A stretch of 48,106 nt of DNA from NCBI GenBank assembly GCA_028820655.1, contig JAPPIK010000019.1, forward strand, positions 53,348 through 101,453, in the 5' to 3' direction. Each line of letters starts with the position of its first letter. Position 1 is the first letter of the stretch. Positions 28,284 to 47,460 of the stretch are shown here, one piece after another. The notes beneath the pieces are model-generated. The model was not told the DNA's origin. It saw nothing but the letters and a program-made list of their open reading frames with translations, and ran no database searches. Made by a program: the position numbers and the translations under genes. Origin of the DNA: Candidatus Poribacteria bacterium (lineage in GTDB: Bacteria; Poribacteria; WGA-4E; JAJDTR01).

Positions 28284-29371
28284 TCCTGCGCCATCCGTGA
28301 TTCAGACAAATGGCGTAGGTTGGGTAGAGCGGCTATTTGTAGTTCTCATGCCATGCACTGAAAAACCTTGGATGCTCGACCCTTCCCCATAACGCCAATG
28401 AATTAGAGCGAAACCCAACACTTCAATCCAACACACGCGTTAATTATCACGTAGACCAATCACTTTCGTCCGCCTTTATCCGTGTAATCCGCGTAACCCG
28501 TTCAATCCGTGATTCAGACAAGTGGCGTAGGTTGGGTAGAGCGGCTATTTGAAGATCTCATGCCATGCACTGAAAAAACTCCGATGCTCGACTCTTCCCG
28601 ATAACACCAAAAAATCCGAGCGAAACCCAACACTTCAATCCAACGCACGTGCTGATTATCACGTAGACCAATCACTTGCGACCGCCTTTATCCGTGTAAT
28701 CCGCGTAATCCGTGATTCAGACAAGTGGCGTAGGTTGGGTAGAGCGGCTATCTTAAAGATACCATGCACCGAAAAACCTCCGATGCTCGACCCTTCCCGA
28801 TAACGCCAATGAATTAGAGCGAAACCCAACACTTCAATCCAATGCGCCCGATGATTATCACGTAGACCAATCACTTGTGACCGCCTTTATCCGTGTAATC
28901 CGCGTAATCCGTTTAATCCGTGATTCAGACAAGTGGCGTAGGTTGGGTAGAGCGGCTATCTTGAAGATACCTTGCACCGAAAAACCTCCGATGCTCGACC
29001 CTTCCCGATAACGCCAATGAATTAGAGCGAAACCCAACACTTCAATTCAACGCACGTGCTGATTATCACGTAGACCAATCACTTCCGACCGCCTTTATCC
29101 GTGTAATCCGCGTAATCCGTGTAATCCGTGTAATCCGTGATTCAGACAAGTGGCGTAGGTTGGGTAGAGCGGCTATCTAAAAATATCATGCCATGCACTG
29201 AAGAACCTCCGATGCTCGACTCTTCCCGATAACGCCAATAAATTCGAGCGAAACCCAACACTTCAATCCAACACACGCGTTAATTATCACGTAGACCAAT
29301 CACTTCCGACCGCCTTTTTCCGTGTAATCCGCGTAATCCGTTTAATCCGTGATTCAGACAATTTCCTCTCA
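28284..29371. repeat. Tandem array of five ~210-bp repeats
   Basis: The marker GGCGTAGGTTGGGTAGAGCG starts near 28312, 28524, 28727, 28935 and 29152, giving units of 203-217 bases. Each unit has TAGAGCGGCTAT, GATGCTCGACYCTTCCCGAT, GAGCGAAACCCAACACTTCA, ATTATCACGTAGACCAATCA and a variable run of AATCCGYG words before GATTCAGACAA. Unit length changes mainly with the number of the 10-base TAATCCGTGT-like words. Short minus ORFs in it repeat with the array and are not genes. Confidence 0.9.
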
Positions 29372-41269: not shown

Positions 41270-44200
41270 ATGTTTAAACGCCATTTCACTTCCGCATTGA
41301 TTTGCCTATTTCTCTTTATTGCAGGTGATTACTATGTATCCGCTCAATCACAATTGGCACAGGATGCCTACGCCATATTTGAGGCGAGTTGCCTCAACTG
41401 CCACGGTCCCGACGGCGCTTTTCGAGAAACGCTCCTCATCGAACACAGCGAACTCATTGACAGGGGAACCGTTGTTCCGGGAAATCCCAATGCCTCCGAG
41501 TTGTACAAGCGCCTGCTCGGTCCCACCGAAAACGGCGCACAGATGCCGTCCGGACAGGAACCGTTGCCCGCTCAGTCCATTGAGACGGTTCGACGTTGGA
41601 TTCTAGCCGGAGCACCCGATTGGACGATTACGCCGACAACCCTCCGCCGTTTCATCACGCCCCGCGAAGTGCTCACGAGCATTGAGTCGCATCTCAACTC
41701 TCTCTCGTCGTTCGACCGTTCCTTCGCGCGCTACTTCACGATGACGCATCTCTATAATGCCGGAGAAACTCCCGAGATACTTGCCGAATACCGCGCAGCG
41801 CTGTATAAATTGGTCAACAGCCTTTCATGGGGAAACGGGATTATCAACCCGCAACCCATCGACCCCCAAGCGACCATCTTCTACATTGACCTACGTCACT
41901 ACGAGTGGGATCGAAATGACGGTTGGACGAAGCTGGAAGAAGCCTATCCCTATCACATTTCGTTCGACGCGCCCGCCCATCTCGCAACCCGGAATCAACT
42001 GGGGCGGTTGCAGACACAGATGAAGACCGATGTGCCGTCGCTGCATGTGGACTGGTTTATTGCAACAGCTTCTACGCCGCCGTTGTATCACGAACTGCTT
42101 TCGCTGCCGTTGACCGACAGCGAGTTGGAAACCCGATTGGAGGTCGATGTCGCAGCCAATCTGGTGAATGCACCCGGGGTTCGCGTCTGGCGCGCCGGTT
42201 TCAAAGATTCGGGTGTGTCAAACCACAACCGGGTAGTGGAACGCCATATCTCTCGTTATGGAGCCTATTGGAAGAGTTACGACTTTGCCGGCAGCGCCGG
42301 TAGACAGAACATCTTAACGCACCCGCTTAATTTCACGCATGACGGGGGAGAAGTTATCTTCAATCTCCCAAACGGGCTGCAAGGATACTACCTTTCCAAT
42401 GCCTCCGGTCTCCGATTGGACGAAGCCCCGATCAACATTGTGTCCAATCCTGCGGCAAGCGACCCGACGGTACGCAACGGAATCTCCTGTATAGGCTGCC
42501 ATACCGAAGGCATGAAGACGTTTGAAGACGAGGTGCGTTCGGTGATCGAGAGCAACCCCAATCCTCCCTACGATAAAGCGCAGGCGCTGCGGTTGTACGT
42601 CGAGCAATCGGAGATGGACGCTCACGTAGAAAAAGACATGGACAAATACAGAGACGCGCTTGAAGCCACGGGGGGCGAGTTTGGCGGCATCGAACCGGTT
42701 TCGCGTTTCCACGAGGCGTTTCAGGGACCGGTGGACGCGGCATACGCCGCTGCCGTGGTCGGATTGCAGACCGAGACCTTCCTTGAGAGGGTTCGCGAGA
42801 ACACGGGGCTTCAGAACGTTGGATTGCTGGCGCTCGATAATGCAAACGGGAGTGTGAAGCGAGACACCTGGGCATCTAGTTTTAGAGACATAATTTCTGC
42901 GCTGGACTATCCGGACCGGGTTGGAGAGCCCCCAGTCATAACGCAGCCGGAGGTGTTGCCGGGAGGGCAGGTTCATTTTCCCGATTCCAACCTGCGTGCT
43001 GCCGTTGCAGAAGCGCTTGGCAAAAACGCCAATGCTCCCATTACCGCGGAGGAGATGAAAGGATTGAGAGGACTTAATGCGAGCAACAGAGGAATTCGTG
43101 ATCTAACAGGCATTCAGTTTGCAACCAATCTAGACGAGTTGCTGATCGACGAAAATAACATATCGGACCTGTCCCCGCTTGAGCGATTGGCCAATCTAAG
43201 GAGGTTACGTTTTAAGGGGAACAACGTGACTGATCTATCGCCGGTGTCTAGCATAATTAATCTGGAAATCCTTACATTTCACCGTAACAACGTGTCTGAC
43301 TTCCCAGCGCTGGCGCAATTAACGAAACTCGAAGAACTGGGATTCAACGAAAATAAAATTACAGACATCGGGCCGCTTGCGGGATTAATTAATTTGACAC
43401 ACATCTCCACGTGGGGCAATCGTTTTTCTGATCTATCACCCCTGGCGAGATTAAAAAAGTTGGAGAAAGTCGACATTTGCGGCGCAGACTTAAGCCAGGC
43501 GAGCCTCGCCCCACTGACAAACCTGCCCAATCTGAGAGAGCTTTATCTTGCCGGAAACGGAATAACGGACATATCACTCATCGCGAGATTAACAGAGCTA
43601 GACAGGCTGGGACTTGACCATAACCGAATTTCAAATTTATCGCCTCTTGCTGGATTAACCAATTTGAAGTGGTTAAGCCTGCACCGGAACCGAATTTCTG
43701 ACCTATCTCCGCTTACAGGATTGAATAATTTGACATGGCTGAAGATATCCAATAACGAAATCACCGACCTGTCTATTCTGGATGGAATACGGGACAATCT
43801 AAACACCTTGATAGCCTACGGAAATCTGGAACTCTTGAGAGGCGCGGGCCCGAAAATAGAGGGTCCCTGGTTGTGGGTGTTTCTCCCAACCACACGACAC
43901 AAACTCAACGAGAACGTGGATTTACTAGCGGAAGCCAGCGAAGGGGAGGTGACCGAGCAGAAGATCGGCACTGCAGGCGCGACAGAGGGTAACGCCGTCG
44001 GCGATGCGGTATGGACACTCGACAGACTACCGCCTACGGGCAGGAACAACCTTATTGATATGGTGGGTCGCAGGCTCCCCGACGGCGTTATGTACGGCGC
44101 ACTCTTTCTCCATTCGCCGATCAAGCAGGACACGACCATGTTTCTCGGTGCTGATCAGGAAGTAAGGGTCTGGCTCAACGGCGAGGTGATGTACCAGCGT

Positions 44201-45382
44201 GAGCGTTCTGGGCACGCCGAAGATTATATCGAGGTGTTTGATGTCACGCTCCAGCGGGGGAAAAACGTCTTGTTGGTGGCCGTTGCCACTCGTCCCGATG
44301 ATGCCTCCAACCTATTCGTCGGGTTGCACGAGGACACGGAATACTCCGCCGGAGTCATTATCGATTACGTCTTTTCCGAGTCGTCAATTCATACCGCCGA
44401 CACTTTTACCCTTGATGTTCGATTAGAAAACGTCATCGACTTGGCAGGTTGGCAGTTTGATCTCGCCTTTGATCCTTCCGTCCTTGAAGCGAAGGGAGTG
44501 AGCGAAGGCGGCTTCCTGAAGTCGGATGGCGGAGCCACTTTCTTCCAGAGTGGGCGGATTGACAACTTAGCAGGTAAAATCACAGGGCTGATTGCGGGAC
44601 GACTCAGCGAAGGCGGCGCGAGCGGCAGCGGCTCCCTGCTTCAGGTGGAGTTCACGGCAAAATCCGAAGGTGAAACGGAATTGGCGCTCGGCAATTTCGA
44701 GTTCGGCTCAATCACAGGCGCAAAAATTCCTGCAAGCCCCCTTGAGGTACGCCTCACCGTGGAGGAACGACTGGTGACCGGGGATGTCAATCGAGATGGA
44801 CGGGTGAGTATTTTGGATTTGATTCTGGTGGCGCAACAGTTGGGGAAACGGGTAGCCGCCGGCTCTCCGGTGGATATCAACGCCGATGGAATCGTGAACA
44901 TCTTCGACCTGACGCTGGTGGCGCAGGGGATTGTGGGCGCCGCCGCGCCCGCGGTTGGGACGGGAAGTGTAGACGCCGCAACGATAGAAGCATGGATTGC
45001 AGAGGCGCGCTTGGCAGACGATGGTTCGATTGTTTTTCAACAGGGAATTGCAAATCTTCAAAGCCTGTTAACCGCACTGATTATTCCCGAGGAAACCGCG
45101 CTGCACGCCAACTACCCGAATCCGTTTAACCCTGAAACTTGGATACCGTATCAGTTGGCGGTGCCGAGTGACGTCACGTTGACGCTTTACGACATGAGCG
45201 GGGGAGTGGTGCGGCGCTTGGAAGTGGGGCATCAAGCGGCGGGGTTGTACCGGAGCCGCAACCGCGCGTTGTATTGGGACGGTCGGAATCGGGATGGGGA
45301 ACCCGTTGCGAGCGGATTATACTTTTACACGTTGAGCGCGGGCGAGTACACGGCGACGCGGAGGATGCTGGTTAGGAAGTAG
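41270..45382 (+). CDS. Cytochrome-LRR-cohesin-dockerin surface protein 2
   Basis: A 1370-residue paralogue of the 35494 gene with the same order: signal peptide (HFTSALICLFLFIAGDYYVS), haem motif C41LNCH45, second haem motif C407IGCH411, leucine-rich repeats (11 units, about 608-854), sugar-binding-like domain (TTMFLGADQEVRVWLNG), cohesin (GWQFDLAFDPSVLEAKGVSE), dockerin (GDVNRDGRVSILDLILV, VDINADGIVNIFDLTLV) and common tail ending ATRRMLVRK. AGGAGA lies about 9 bases before ATG. The haem domain around 42007-42794 is base-for-base identical to 36232-37019 over long stretches, while the LRR region differs in sequence and has three repeats fewer. This points to recent gene conversion of the core with divergence of the recognition region. 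Confidence 0.92.
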   Translation: MFKRHFTSALICLFLFIAGDYYVSAQSQLAQDAYAIFEASCLNCHGPDGAFRETLLIEHSELIDRGTVVPGNPNASELYKRLLGPTENGAQMPSGQEPLPAQSIETVRRWILAGAPDWTITPTTLRRFITPREVLTSIESHLNSLSSFDRSFARYFTMTHLYNAGETPEILAEYRAALYKLVNSLSWGNGIINPQPIDPQATIFYIDLRHYEWDRNDGWTKLEEAYPYHISFDAPAHLATRNQLGRLQTQMKTDVPSLHVDWFIATASTPPLYHELLSLPLTDSELETRLEVDVAANLVNAPGVRVWRAGFKDSGVSNHNRVVERHISRYGAYWKSYDFAGSAGRQNILTHPLNFTHDGGEVIFNLPNGLQGYYLSNASGLRLDEAPINIVSNPAASDPTVRNGISCIGCHTEGMKTFEDEVRSVIESNPNPPYDKAQALRLYVEQSEMDAHVEKDMDKYRDALEATGGEFGGIEPVSRFHEAFQGPVDAAYAAAVVGLQTETFLERVRENTGLQNVGLLALDNANGSVKRDTWASSFRDIISALDYPDRVGEPPVITQPEVLPGGQVHFPDSNLRAAVAEALGKNANAPITAEEMKGLRGLNASNRGIRDLTGIQFATNLDELLIDENNISDLSPLERLANLRRLRFKGNNVTDLSPVSSIINLEILTFHRNNVSDFPALAQLTKLEELGFNENKITDIGPLAGLINLTHISTWGNRFSDLSPLARLKKLEKVDICGADLSQASLAPLTNLPNLRELYLAGNGITDISLIARLTELDRLGLDHNRISNLSPLAGLTNLKWLSLHRNRISDLSPLTGLNNLTWLKISNNEITDLSILDGIRDNLNTLIAYGNLELLRGAGPKIEGPWLWVFLPTTRHKLNENVDLLAEASEGEVTEQKIGTAGATEGNAVGDAVWTLDRLPPTGRNNLIDMVGRRLPDGVMYGALFLHSPIKQDTTMFLGADQEVRVWLNGEVMYQRERSGHAEDYIEVFDVTLQRGKNVLLVAVATRPDDASNLFVGLHEDTEYSAGVIIDYVFSESSIHTADTFTLDVRLENVIDLAGWQFDLAFDPSVLEAKGVSEGGFLKSDGGATFFQSGRIDNLAGKITGLIAGRLSEGGASGSGSLLQVEFTAKSEGETELALGNFEFGSITGAKIPASPLEVRLTVEERLVTGDVNRDGRVSILDLILVAQQLGKRVAAGSPVDINADGIVNIFDLTLVAQGIVGAAAPAVGTGSVDAATIEAWIAEARLADDGSIVFQQGIANLQSLLTALIIPEETALHANYPNPFNPETWIPYQLAVPSDVTLTLYDMSGGVVRRLEVGHQAAGLYRSRNRALYWDGRNRDGEPVASGLYFYTLSAGEYTATRRMLVRK

Positions 45383-45987
45383 AATCAAGCTATTACCCAC
45401 TTCCGTAGGCCGAACTTCCTAGCTTTAACTGTAGGGTGCAGAACGCGCACAGCCTTAGAGCCTGATTGAATAGTCGGTAGCAAAGTCATTTCGGTCGTTT
45501 GTAGAAGGCTCCTTCATGTATTTATTGTCGCCCGCAACATACGTGTGGAATCTCTATGGGAGTTCTATCGCGTGCGCTATTCGCTTACTTGATCATTCGC
45601 TATCCGCAGATTTGATCGCTCCTACGGCGAAAGGCTCGTGGGCAGAAGATTGGCTATAGGATCTCTATCGTGGTCGTTAACCACTCCCTTGATCACTCGT
45701 TGTCCAATTGCTTTGATCTATTCCCTCGCTTGATTCCACCCTACAACTGCACTGGGATTTAGGGGAGAAACAGAGTTTGGCAGATCAAATTCGTTTTCTT
45801 ACGCTATTGTGGGGTTTCACGCGGAATTCGGGGACATCACGTAAAAAGAGGGTTCCACATTAAATCAGAATTCTCGACTTTTTTGGTGGGAGACTGTTCA
45901 ACCCAACCTACGAACTATTGGAGCCATCTATTTTGCTTTAACTGCTGTAGGGAAGTATTATAACATGCGTGATAGATAGATGGAAAG

Positions 45988-46046
45988 AGAGCCATAGTGT
46001 CAACCTTGTGACAGGCAGATGTGGAAAACATCAACACTATGGCTCT
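45988..46046. promoter_or_regulatory. 13-bp inverted repeat upstream of a promoter
   Basis: AGAGCCATAGTGT (45988-46000) and its exact complement ACACTATGGCTCT (46034-46046), with a 33-base spacer. It ends 27 bases before the -35 box at 46073, so it may be an operator or a barrier hairpin for upstream transcription. Confidence 0.5.
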
Positions 46047-46072
46047 ATGTTTGTATACTTCCAACATTATTG

Positions 46073-46101
46073 TTGACAAGTGGAAACTGGCTTGATAGAA
46101 T
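46073..46101 (+). promoter_or_regulatory. Sigma70-type promoter
   Basis: TTGACA (46073-46078), 17-base spacer, TAGAAT (46096-46101). Consensus -35 and ideal spacing; about 50 bases before the ATG at 46152. Confidence 0.7.
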
Positions 46102-46151
46102 TAGAGAATCGGGAAAGCACAACGTTTCCCACAACTCGGAGGAACAGATCA

Positions 46152-46820
46152 ATGAAACGGAAATTGGTTGGCTTGGTAATCGTGGTTGTGCTTATGCTCG
46201 GAATTTCTATAGGTTATCAAGAATACAGGGGAAATGAGTTACGAAAAGAGTTTTCACACACAGTGGAGCCTCCCGTGAATCAGGTTGCCCTTAGCCCTTA
46301 TACAGTGAGACAGTATGAGATTCCAAAATCCGTTGAACCGATAGATGAATCGACCTCAAGGGATGCCAACTCCGAGTATGCTTTGACTGAAACCGAGGAA
46401 TTGGATTTGACAATGGACGATTATATTGATCTGTATTTGGCTCAGGTGCAAGAGGAAATAGAGGTTATTAAGGGAACCCCGACTGTCAAGAATGAAACAG
46501 ATCAAACCTTGCAGGATTTATGGCAATCGGCTGGATTATCAATTAATGCTATCAGTAAGGTTATGGAGTTAATACCTATTGACCCGACCATTAACCTGAA
46601 GGATTTTGAGAGCATGTTGGAGAGTTCCCAGGTTGCTTCGAGGGCGATTGATAACCACTTGAAATCTGATGCTGCCACTTTGACGCTTGAGGAAGCACGG
46701 GGAATAGTTAAAATCCTAAAAGATGATCCAACCACAACGGCTGAAGAATTTCAGTATATCACGAAGGAATTGTTCCCTACTGAGATTCAAGCAACTTTGG
46801 TTGAGGAGGGAGTGCTATAA
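46152..46820 (+). CDS. Membrane-anchored hypothetical protein
   Basis: A 222-residue protein; ATG 46152 is chosen over an in-frame upstream start at 46080 because GGAGG lies about 8 bases before it and a membrane segment begins at once (MKRKLVGLVIVVVLMLGISI). The rest is an acidic, mostly helical periplasmic domain (YIDLYLAQVQEEIEVIKGTP, LTLEEARGIVKILKDDPTTT) with a Tyr/Pro-rich spacer after the anchor. The family is not recognised. Its TAA overlaps the ATG of the next small secreted ORF (TAATG). The last about 28 codons lie in the 186-bp tandem duplication, so a second, orphaned copy of its C-terminus (TAEEFQYITKELIPTEIQAV) follows at 46923-47006. Confidence 0.7.
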   Translation: MKRKLVGLVIVVVLMLGISIGYQEYRGNELRKEFSHTVEPPVNQVALSPYTVRQYEIPKSVEPIDESTSRDANSEYALTETEELDLTMDDYIDLYLAQVQEEIEVIKGTPTVKNETDQTLQDLWQSAGLSINAISKVMELIPIDPTINLKDFESMLESSQVASRAIDNHLKSDAATLTLEEARGIVKILKDDPTTTAEEFQYITKELFPTEIQATLVEEGVL

Positions 46821-47107
46821 TGAGATACGCAATCGTAGCAACTTGCTTGCTAGTAGCATTCTCACTTGGTGTGTTCACTCCAAATTTGGCACGTCAAGCA
46901 AGCGGATCAGACTGCGACGCTAACGGCTGAAGAATTTCAGTATATCACGAAGGAACTGATCCCTACTGAGATTCAAGCAGTTTTGGCTGAAGAGGGAGTG
47001 CCATAAAGAGATACGCAATCGTAGCAACTTGCTTGCTAGTAGCATTCTCACTTGGTGTGTTCACTCCAATCTTGGCACATCAAACAAGCGGATCAGACTG
47101 CGACGCT
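46736..47107 (+). repeat. Tandem duplication of a 186-bp unit
   Basis: Unit 1 (46736-46921) and unit 2 (46922-47107) share most bases, beginning AACGGCTGAAGAATTTCAGT and ending CAGACTGCGACGCT. Differences include ATG at 46820 versus AAG at 47006 and a few substitutions. The unit spans the end of one gene and the start of the next. Confidence 0.9.
46820..46930 (+). pseudogene. Truncated 5' copy of the small secreted protein
   Basis: MRYAIVATCLLVAFSLGVFT begins a good signal peptide from ATG 46820, coupled to the gene before it (TAATG). After SGSDCDA the frame runs into duplication unit 2 and stops (NG, TGA 46930). The remaining 36 residues are little more than the export signal. It keeps the start codon that the full-length copy has lost. 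Confidence 0.7.
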
Positions 47108-47314
47108 TTGTATGAAACTTACCTCCGTGCTTTTGCTGAGGCTGTTCTAAAGTCTTGGGAAGCATACAAAGCATGGAAGGAATGGCAAGACGCCGAGGGC
47201 ACGTGGGACAGATTGAAGAAGCGAGCAAACTTCTACAGGAAGGGACACGCTGCCCAGCAGGCTTGGAAGCGAGTAGAGAAAGCCATTACACACCACAATG
47301 AGCATTGTAACTAA
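47033..47314 (+). CDS. Small secreted helical protein whose start codon was lost
   Basis: The body (SGSDCDALYETYLRAFAEAV, WEAYKAWKEWQDAEGTWDRL, AWKRVEKAITHHNEHCN) is about 70 helical residues with two cysteines, after a signal peptide. In the duplicated unit the expected ATG (aligned with 46820) is AAG at 47006-47008, so the natural start is gone. The first alternative is TTG 47033, which yields MLVAFSLGVFTPILAHQ, still signal-like but without a basic N-terminus or a clear ribosome-binding site. Expression is therefore doubtful, although the rest of the frame is intact. A strong terminator follows 23 bases after the stop. Family not recognised. Confidence 0.55.
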   Translation: MLVAFSLGVFTPILAHQTSGSDCDALYETYLRAFAEAVLKSWEAYKAWKEWQDAEGTWDRLKKRANFYRKGHAAQQAWKRVEKAITHHNEHCN

Positions 47315-47336
47315 CTGATACTAAAATAGGAATGAC

Positions 47337-47370
47337 AAAGGCTGGGTTGTGTAAACGCCCAGCCTTTTCT
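47337..47370 (+). terminator. Intrinsic terminator
   Basis: AAAGGCTGGG (47337-47346), 11-base loop, CCCAGCCTTT (47358-47367), continuing into TTTTCT. A perfect 10-bp stem, 22 bases after the small secreted gene; it ends the operon begun at 46073. Confidence 0.9.
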
Positions 47371-47432
47371 ATTATAAACTCCTAGTTTCAGTTCTAACTG
47401 GTGCTCTCGGTAAGTGTTTATGCAAGTGAGGA

Positions 47433-47460
47433 TGTCGCGATTCGGAGATCGCTCCTACAG
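47433..47460. repeat. Fragment of the dispersed repeat
   Basis: TCGCGATTCGGAGATCGCTC CTACAG matches the module at 80-100, 233-252, 19744 and 22647. Confidence 0.8.

Follow-up and report, generated by a model that had tools for sequence, protein, structure and literature searches.

A partial tandem duplication across a two-gene junction in a Candidatus Poribacteria genome, probably an old and diverged remnant

In the DNA analysed here (48,106 nucleotides, hereafter the window), the end of one gene, A, and the start of the next, B, are joined in a 186-bp unit that is present twice, head to tail, at 46736-46921 and 46922-47107 of the forward strand; the two copies agree at 174 of 186 positions, with no indels. 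We read this arrangement as the probable remnant, diverged and by now frozen, of a partial tandem duplication that took place long ago where the two genes of an operon, A and then B, meet. It has the look of ordinary genetic wear, not of a switch that can be turned on and off. The full-length B frame most likely yields very little protein or none, since copy 2 has lost the ATG and carries AAGAGG in place of the AGGAGG of copy 1. The features referred to below are:

46073-46101, + strand, promoter-like TTGACA-17-TAGAAT upstream of A, 11 of 12 consensus positions (a consensus match only)
46152-46820, + strand, gene A, 222 aa, with an N-terminal signal/anchor-like segment; family without assigned function
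46736-46921, + strand, repeat copy 1: 28 A codons with the stop, AGGAGG and GGAG, ATG, first 34 B codons
46820-46930, + strand, truncated B, 36 codons and a stop; 1-nt overlap between its ATG and the stop of A
46922-47107, + strand, repeat copy 2: probable relic of the A 3' end, AAG replacing ATG, B codons 2-34
47006-47314, + strand, B frame lacking a standard start codon; its head resembles a signal peptide and its body is predicted to form a two-helix hairpin
47334-47369, + strand, terminator-like hairpin behind B, with a GGCTGGG/CCCAGCC stem followed by TTTT

The duplicated unit and its operon context

Each unit begins with the final 28 codons of A (stop included) and ends at codon 34 of B. 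A chance origin of the pair has a probability of about 1e-80 over the window, with bases taken as independent, and is excluded. No bases adjoining the unit borders are shared, so that the breakpoint shows no microhomology; the longest run identical in both copies is found right of the ATG, at 46822-46883 (62 bp), and nine of the 12 differences are transitions. A preliminary description of this DNA had reported a 186-bp tandem duplication at 46736-47107, joining the end of one gene to the start of the next, with an upstream copy that keeps ATG and stops after 36 codons and a downstream copy that keeps the gene body with AAG for ATG. All of this was recovered (the same coordinates, the A 3' end and B head in one unit, the open reading frame at 46820-46930 and AAG at 47006-47008). 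The wording that the duplication displaced a start codon did not survive: a fresh duplication would copy the ATG, so that the loss of one of the two is most simply a later point substitution, an order of events that we infer. The 12 differences in 186 bp show that the copies have coexisted for long without being collapsed or homogenised.

By the duplication, A would have gained a truncated B as its immediate neighbour, and the full B would have come to lie farther from the A end; a larger duplication of A and B followed by a deletion is an alternative route that would leave the identical structure. The parts made redundant, in copy 2 the A tail and in copy 1 the B head, would then have drifted, and copy 2 would have lost its ATG by a T-to-A substitution, with AGGAGG changing to AAGAGG.

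Together, the promoter-like site before A and the terminator-like hairpin behind B make the two genes look like one operon, as far as sequence elements can indicate. The promoter-like site is the best of the 10 sites listed, with 4.9 expected in shuffles. The hairpin folds at -20.3 kcal/mol, which none of 200 shuffles equalled; it was read by eye and not listed by the pattern scan, and the fold pairs its TTTT with the A run before the stem. In overlapping gene pairs with termination-reinitiation, the coupling of translation in E. coli and Haloferax declines over a distance of about 20-40 nt (PMC10666635). Copy 1 resembles such a pair, the A stop and the B start overlapping by one nucleotide, whereas the full B lies 186 nt further from the A stop. 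Given that range, the duplication may have lowered the expression of B by itself.

Two other elements were noted near the pair. Just upstream of A, a 112-bp hairpin (45951-46062) has perfect 13-bp arms (45988-46000/46034-46046) inside outer arms; the segment 45945-46068 folds at -40 kcal/mol, a value that none of 200 shuffles equalled, and the hairpin is single-copy in the genome except for a 34-bp match at 85%. A 22-bp motif at 47437-47458 occurs 175 times in the genome with at most two mismatches (89 forward, 86 reverse; reversed control, 0), in small clusters in places, with longer repeats around it in stretch L007.

Start and coding frame of B

In copy 1, the TAA of A (46818-46820) overlaps the ATG of B (46820-46822) by 1 nt, with AGGAGG and GGAG just upstream, and the truncated frame runs on into the second unit before it stops. 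At the counterpart of this ATG in copy 2, 47006-47008, the codon is AAG; AGGAGG has become AAGAGG and GAGGGAG is retained. Between the in-frame TGA at 46988-46990 and the AAG, the B frame holds no ATG, GTG or TTG. An ATA (47003-47005) stands in frame directly before the AAG, with GGAG 4 nt upstream of it. The 93-aa open reading frame from TTG 47033 simply reflects the first mechanical start; the frame common to copy 1 reaches back to 47006, and a start at 47033 would remove the first part of the signal-like helix. Readthrough from the truncated to the full B is ruled out, because that frame contains, besides the stop at 46928-46930, at least one more, the TGA at 46988.

The differences between the copies are compatible with mutation alone and show no sign of coding constraint: in the A tail, two of seven are synonymous (26% expected) and in the B head after the start, none of four (28% expected). 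Those in the B head cannot be given a direction, as no relative of B was found for comparison. Copy 2 carries Ile, not Asn, at what is presumably the -3 position of the cleavage site, a point that we count against the frozen-remnant explanation.

The B body, 68 codons without a stop, is open to an extent found in 2.1% of base shuffles, and the other five frames contain one to four stops. If B had drifted for as long as the copies and its body had taken up 7 to 13 substitutions (the 6.5% divergence, by half or in full), the probability of no stop would still be 0.59 to 0.38. Thus, although visible decay of the downstream frame was not seen, at the age of the copies the body could well have stayed open by chance, and its openness is no proof of use. 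Codon usage was no guide: B, like A, scores below zero, and of 2117 stop-free shuffles 322 score at least as high as B. Predicted from the single sequence, B forms a helical hairpin (block-mean pLDDT 87-98 over residues 31-100; two of five models confident); its cysteines are residues 8, 31 and 100, numbered from 47009, the latter two near the two ends of the hairpin. That the body is open and predicted to fold in this way suggests that B may still be used and, like the GAGGGAG retained in copy 2, speaks against a frozen remnant.

B was found in one of 84 genomes of the phylum and, among 58 relative genomes, in the window's own only (both counts include it). A scan of genome contigs with six short peptide patterns, which detect close relatives only, matched 38 stretches, none of which was confirmed; tblastn against phages and plasmids gave no B, and the DNA from 46150 to 47400 matched no plasmid. 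The single match to B among viral contigs, 28 residues in L009, proved by eye to be another protein around a common YKAWKEWQ and was judged to be chance. Family libraries including PHROGs gave nothing for B at E < 0.001, the PDB searched by sequence nothing below E 0.4, and Foldseek with the B model no PDB match at E <= 0.001; most of the weaker Foldseek matches listed are helical hairpins and coiled coils of a generic kind, including Skp.

Gene A and the polarity of the copies

The A family is present in three of the 84 phylum genomes (the window's own, G001 and G004; 30-33% identity), with a second, distant copy in the window's own genome on another contig (C61). Gene A has no Pfam, NCBIfam or PHROGs match at E < 0.001, and its predicted model is poor (mean pLDDT 54.7). 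In the duplicated tail, the columns where three relatives agree, counted on these relatives alone and without copy 1 in the reference, are matched by copy 1 at eight of 10 and by copy 2 at six of 10, which are small numbers. Four A-tail residues differ between the copies: at F208 and L222 copy 1 alone equals all relatives, at residue 217 copy 1 matches one relative and at residue 215 neither copy matches; copy 2 alone equals all relatives at none. Copy 1 is also joined to the body of A, so that the A tail in copy 2 is most likely the relic, a polarity that rests on two residues of the sequence. The three other A-family loci contain no direct repeat over A (at least 25 nt, spacing up to 600), which says little because no B was found at these loci. 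The neighbour of A differs between genomes, since a protease-like gene lies behind the A relative of G004: a 349-aa protein (422-1471 of L005), read by eye as a trypsin-like serine protease, is encoded 14 nt downstream.

Readings of the duplication

Decayed partial gene duplications are an ordinary phenomenon. The A/B junction resembles them in that A and the full B are separated by a truncated B and by what is most likely a relic of the A tail, and differs in that the B body is without visible decay. If it is of this ordinary kind, as we think probable, it is one more example of a partial duplication at an operon junction that can uncouple and then silence the second gene.

The preliminary description had also proposed that a single recombination could restore the gene, and this holds: a crossover to the right of 46821 would rejoin the ATG with the B body and give a protein of 102 aa, and by computation only, 101 of 187 crossover points have this outcome. 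The proposal of a reversible on/off state is not supported, given the 12 differences, the additional substitution that is needed and an assembly in which the two-unit form is found and the one-unit form is not. Spontaneous sequence duplication in the phase variation of pneumococcal capsule genes (Waite et al. 2001, 2003) is mentioned in PMC4022640. Its analogue here would be phase variation made reversible by duplicating the unit and excising it precisely. The likeness lies in a short tandem duplication in a gene that recombination between the copies could in principle undo; direct repeats of 186 bp that include, right of the ATG, a stretch of 62 bp without any difference, and the many crossover points that restore ATG and body, fit such a mechanism. 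In the capsule genes, the duplication itself is said to break the open frame and the copies are reportedly fresh, whereas here 12 of 186 sites have diverged and the loss is most simply a separate start-codon substitution. With 174 of 186 positions identical, the copies fall short of the near-identity expected of a recent or recurring duplication. Because the off state most simply rests on a point substitution and not on the duplication itself, there would be no simple return path to it; from one unit it would take a new duplication and again a substitution of the ATG. The reversible-state reading has nothing in its favour beyond the repeats themselves, and we consider it very improbable; if true, it would mean a duplication-based on/off state in an uncultured phylum. 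In a frozen remnant, collapse to one unit could still restore B, as a rare chance event rather than by an evolved switch.

Alternatively, B could still be produced in small amounts from a non-standard start, either the ATA at 47003-47005 (giving M-K-R-Y...) or the AAG at 47006, behind GAGGGAG. This is a live rival, since weak AUA and AUU starts behind long ribosome-binding sites exist: in S. aureus such starts work behind extended Shine-Dalgarno sequences at about 10% of AUG, and in one case up to 30% (PMC13009471). The position of the ATA, in frame directly before the AAG and with GGAG 4 nt upstream, and an open and foldable body are in keeping with it. However, the 4-nt spacing is short, the AGGAGG of copy 1 is absent from copy 2, an ATT start in E. 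coli gave about 0.3% of ATG (as quoted in PMC10666635), and the identical ATA precedes the ATG in copy 1 and was therefore not newly made. On balance, we hold this reading to be unlikely. An extended form of it, in which B is a low-expression, lineage-specific secreted helical-hairpin protein that the junction duplication put behind a weak AUA start, and rare collapse to one unit would give high expression in some cells, is in our view very improbable.

The source assembly is a draft of 5.88 Mb in 61 contigs, with the window at the end of one of them (C36), and a single base decides the start of copy 2. Near-identical tandem copies are hard for short reads. Base 47007 could thus be a consensus or assembly error, in which case copy 2 would truly have ATG, B would be intact and the truncated copy merely a spare. 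Against this, the copies stand separate in the assembly with 12 differences, nine of them transitions as in ordinary mutation, and we find an error of this kind rather improbable, if less so than a reversible switch.

How usual such a repeat is here was assessed with TRF in 396 kb (19 stretches and the window; unit of at least 60 bp, score of at least 100), which gave 10 rows and, with overlapping rows merged, tandem repeats at eight places, including the A/B junction. The other seven are in L022, L023 (two), L025, L026, L035 and the window at 28293-29361. Tandem repeats of such size are therefore not rare in this genome. Both repeats of L023 lie inside open reading frames of at least 120 aa and that of L026 overlaps two that resemble repeat DNA read as protein; the remainder overlap none, or by eight bases. 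The L026 repeat (170 bp x 2, 93%) is the sole other one of like length and identity. None of the other seven spans the end of one open reading frame and the start of another (at least 120 aa), and the A/B duplication, the only one in the sample to do so, is in this respect unique among the eight places; we count this against the frozen-remnant explanation, and the presence of the other seven in its favour. The window repeat at 28293-29361 is a five-copy array of units of about 208-212 bp with 86-87% matches, and its overlap with an open reading frame of at least 120 aa is only eight bases. Elsewhere in the window, 41270-45382 encodes a protein of 1370 aa with PSCyt1 cytochrome, leucine-rich-repeat, cohesin and dockerin matches and a FlgD-like C-terminal domain.
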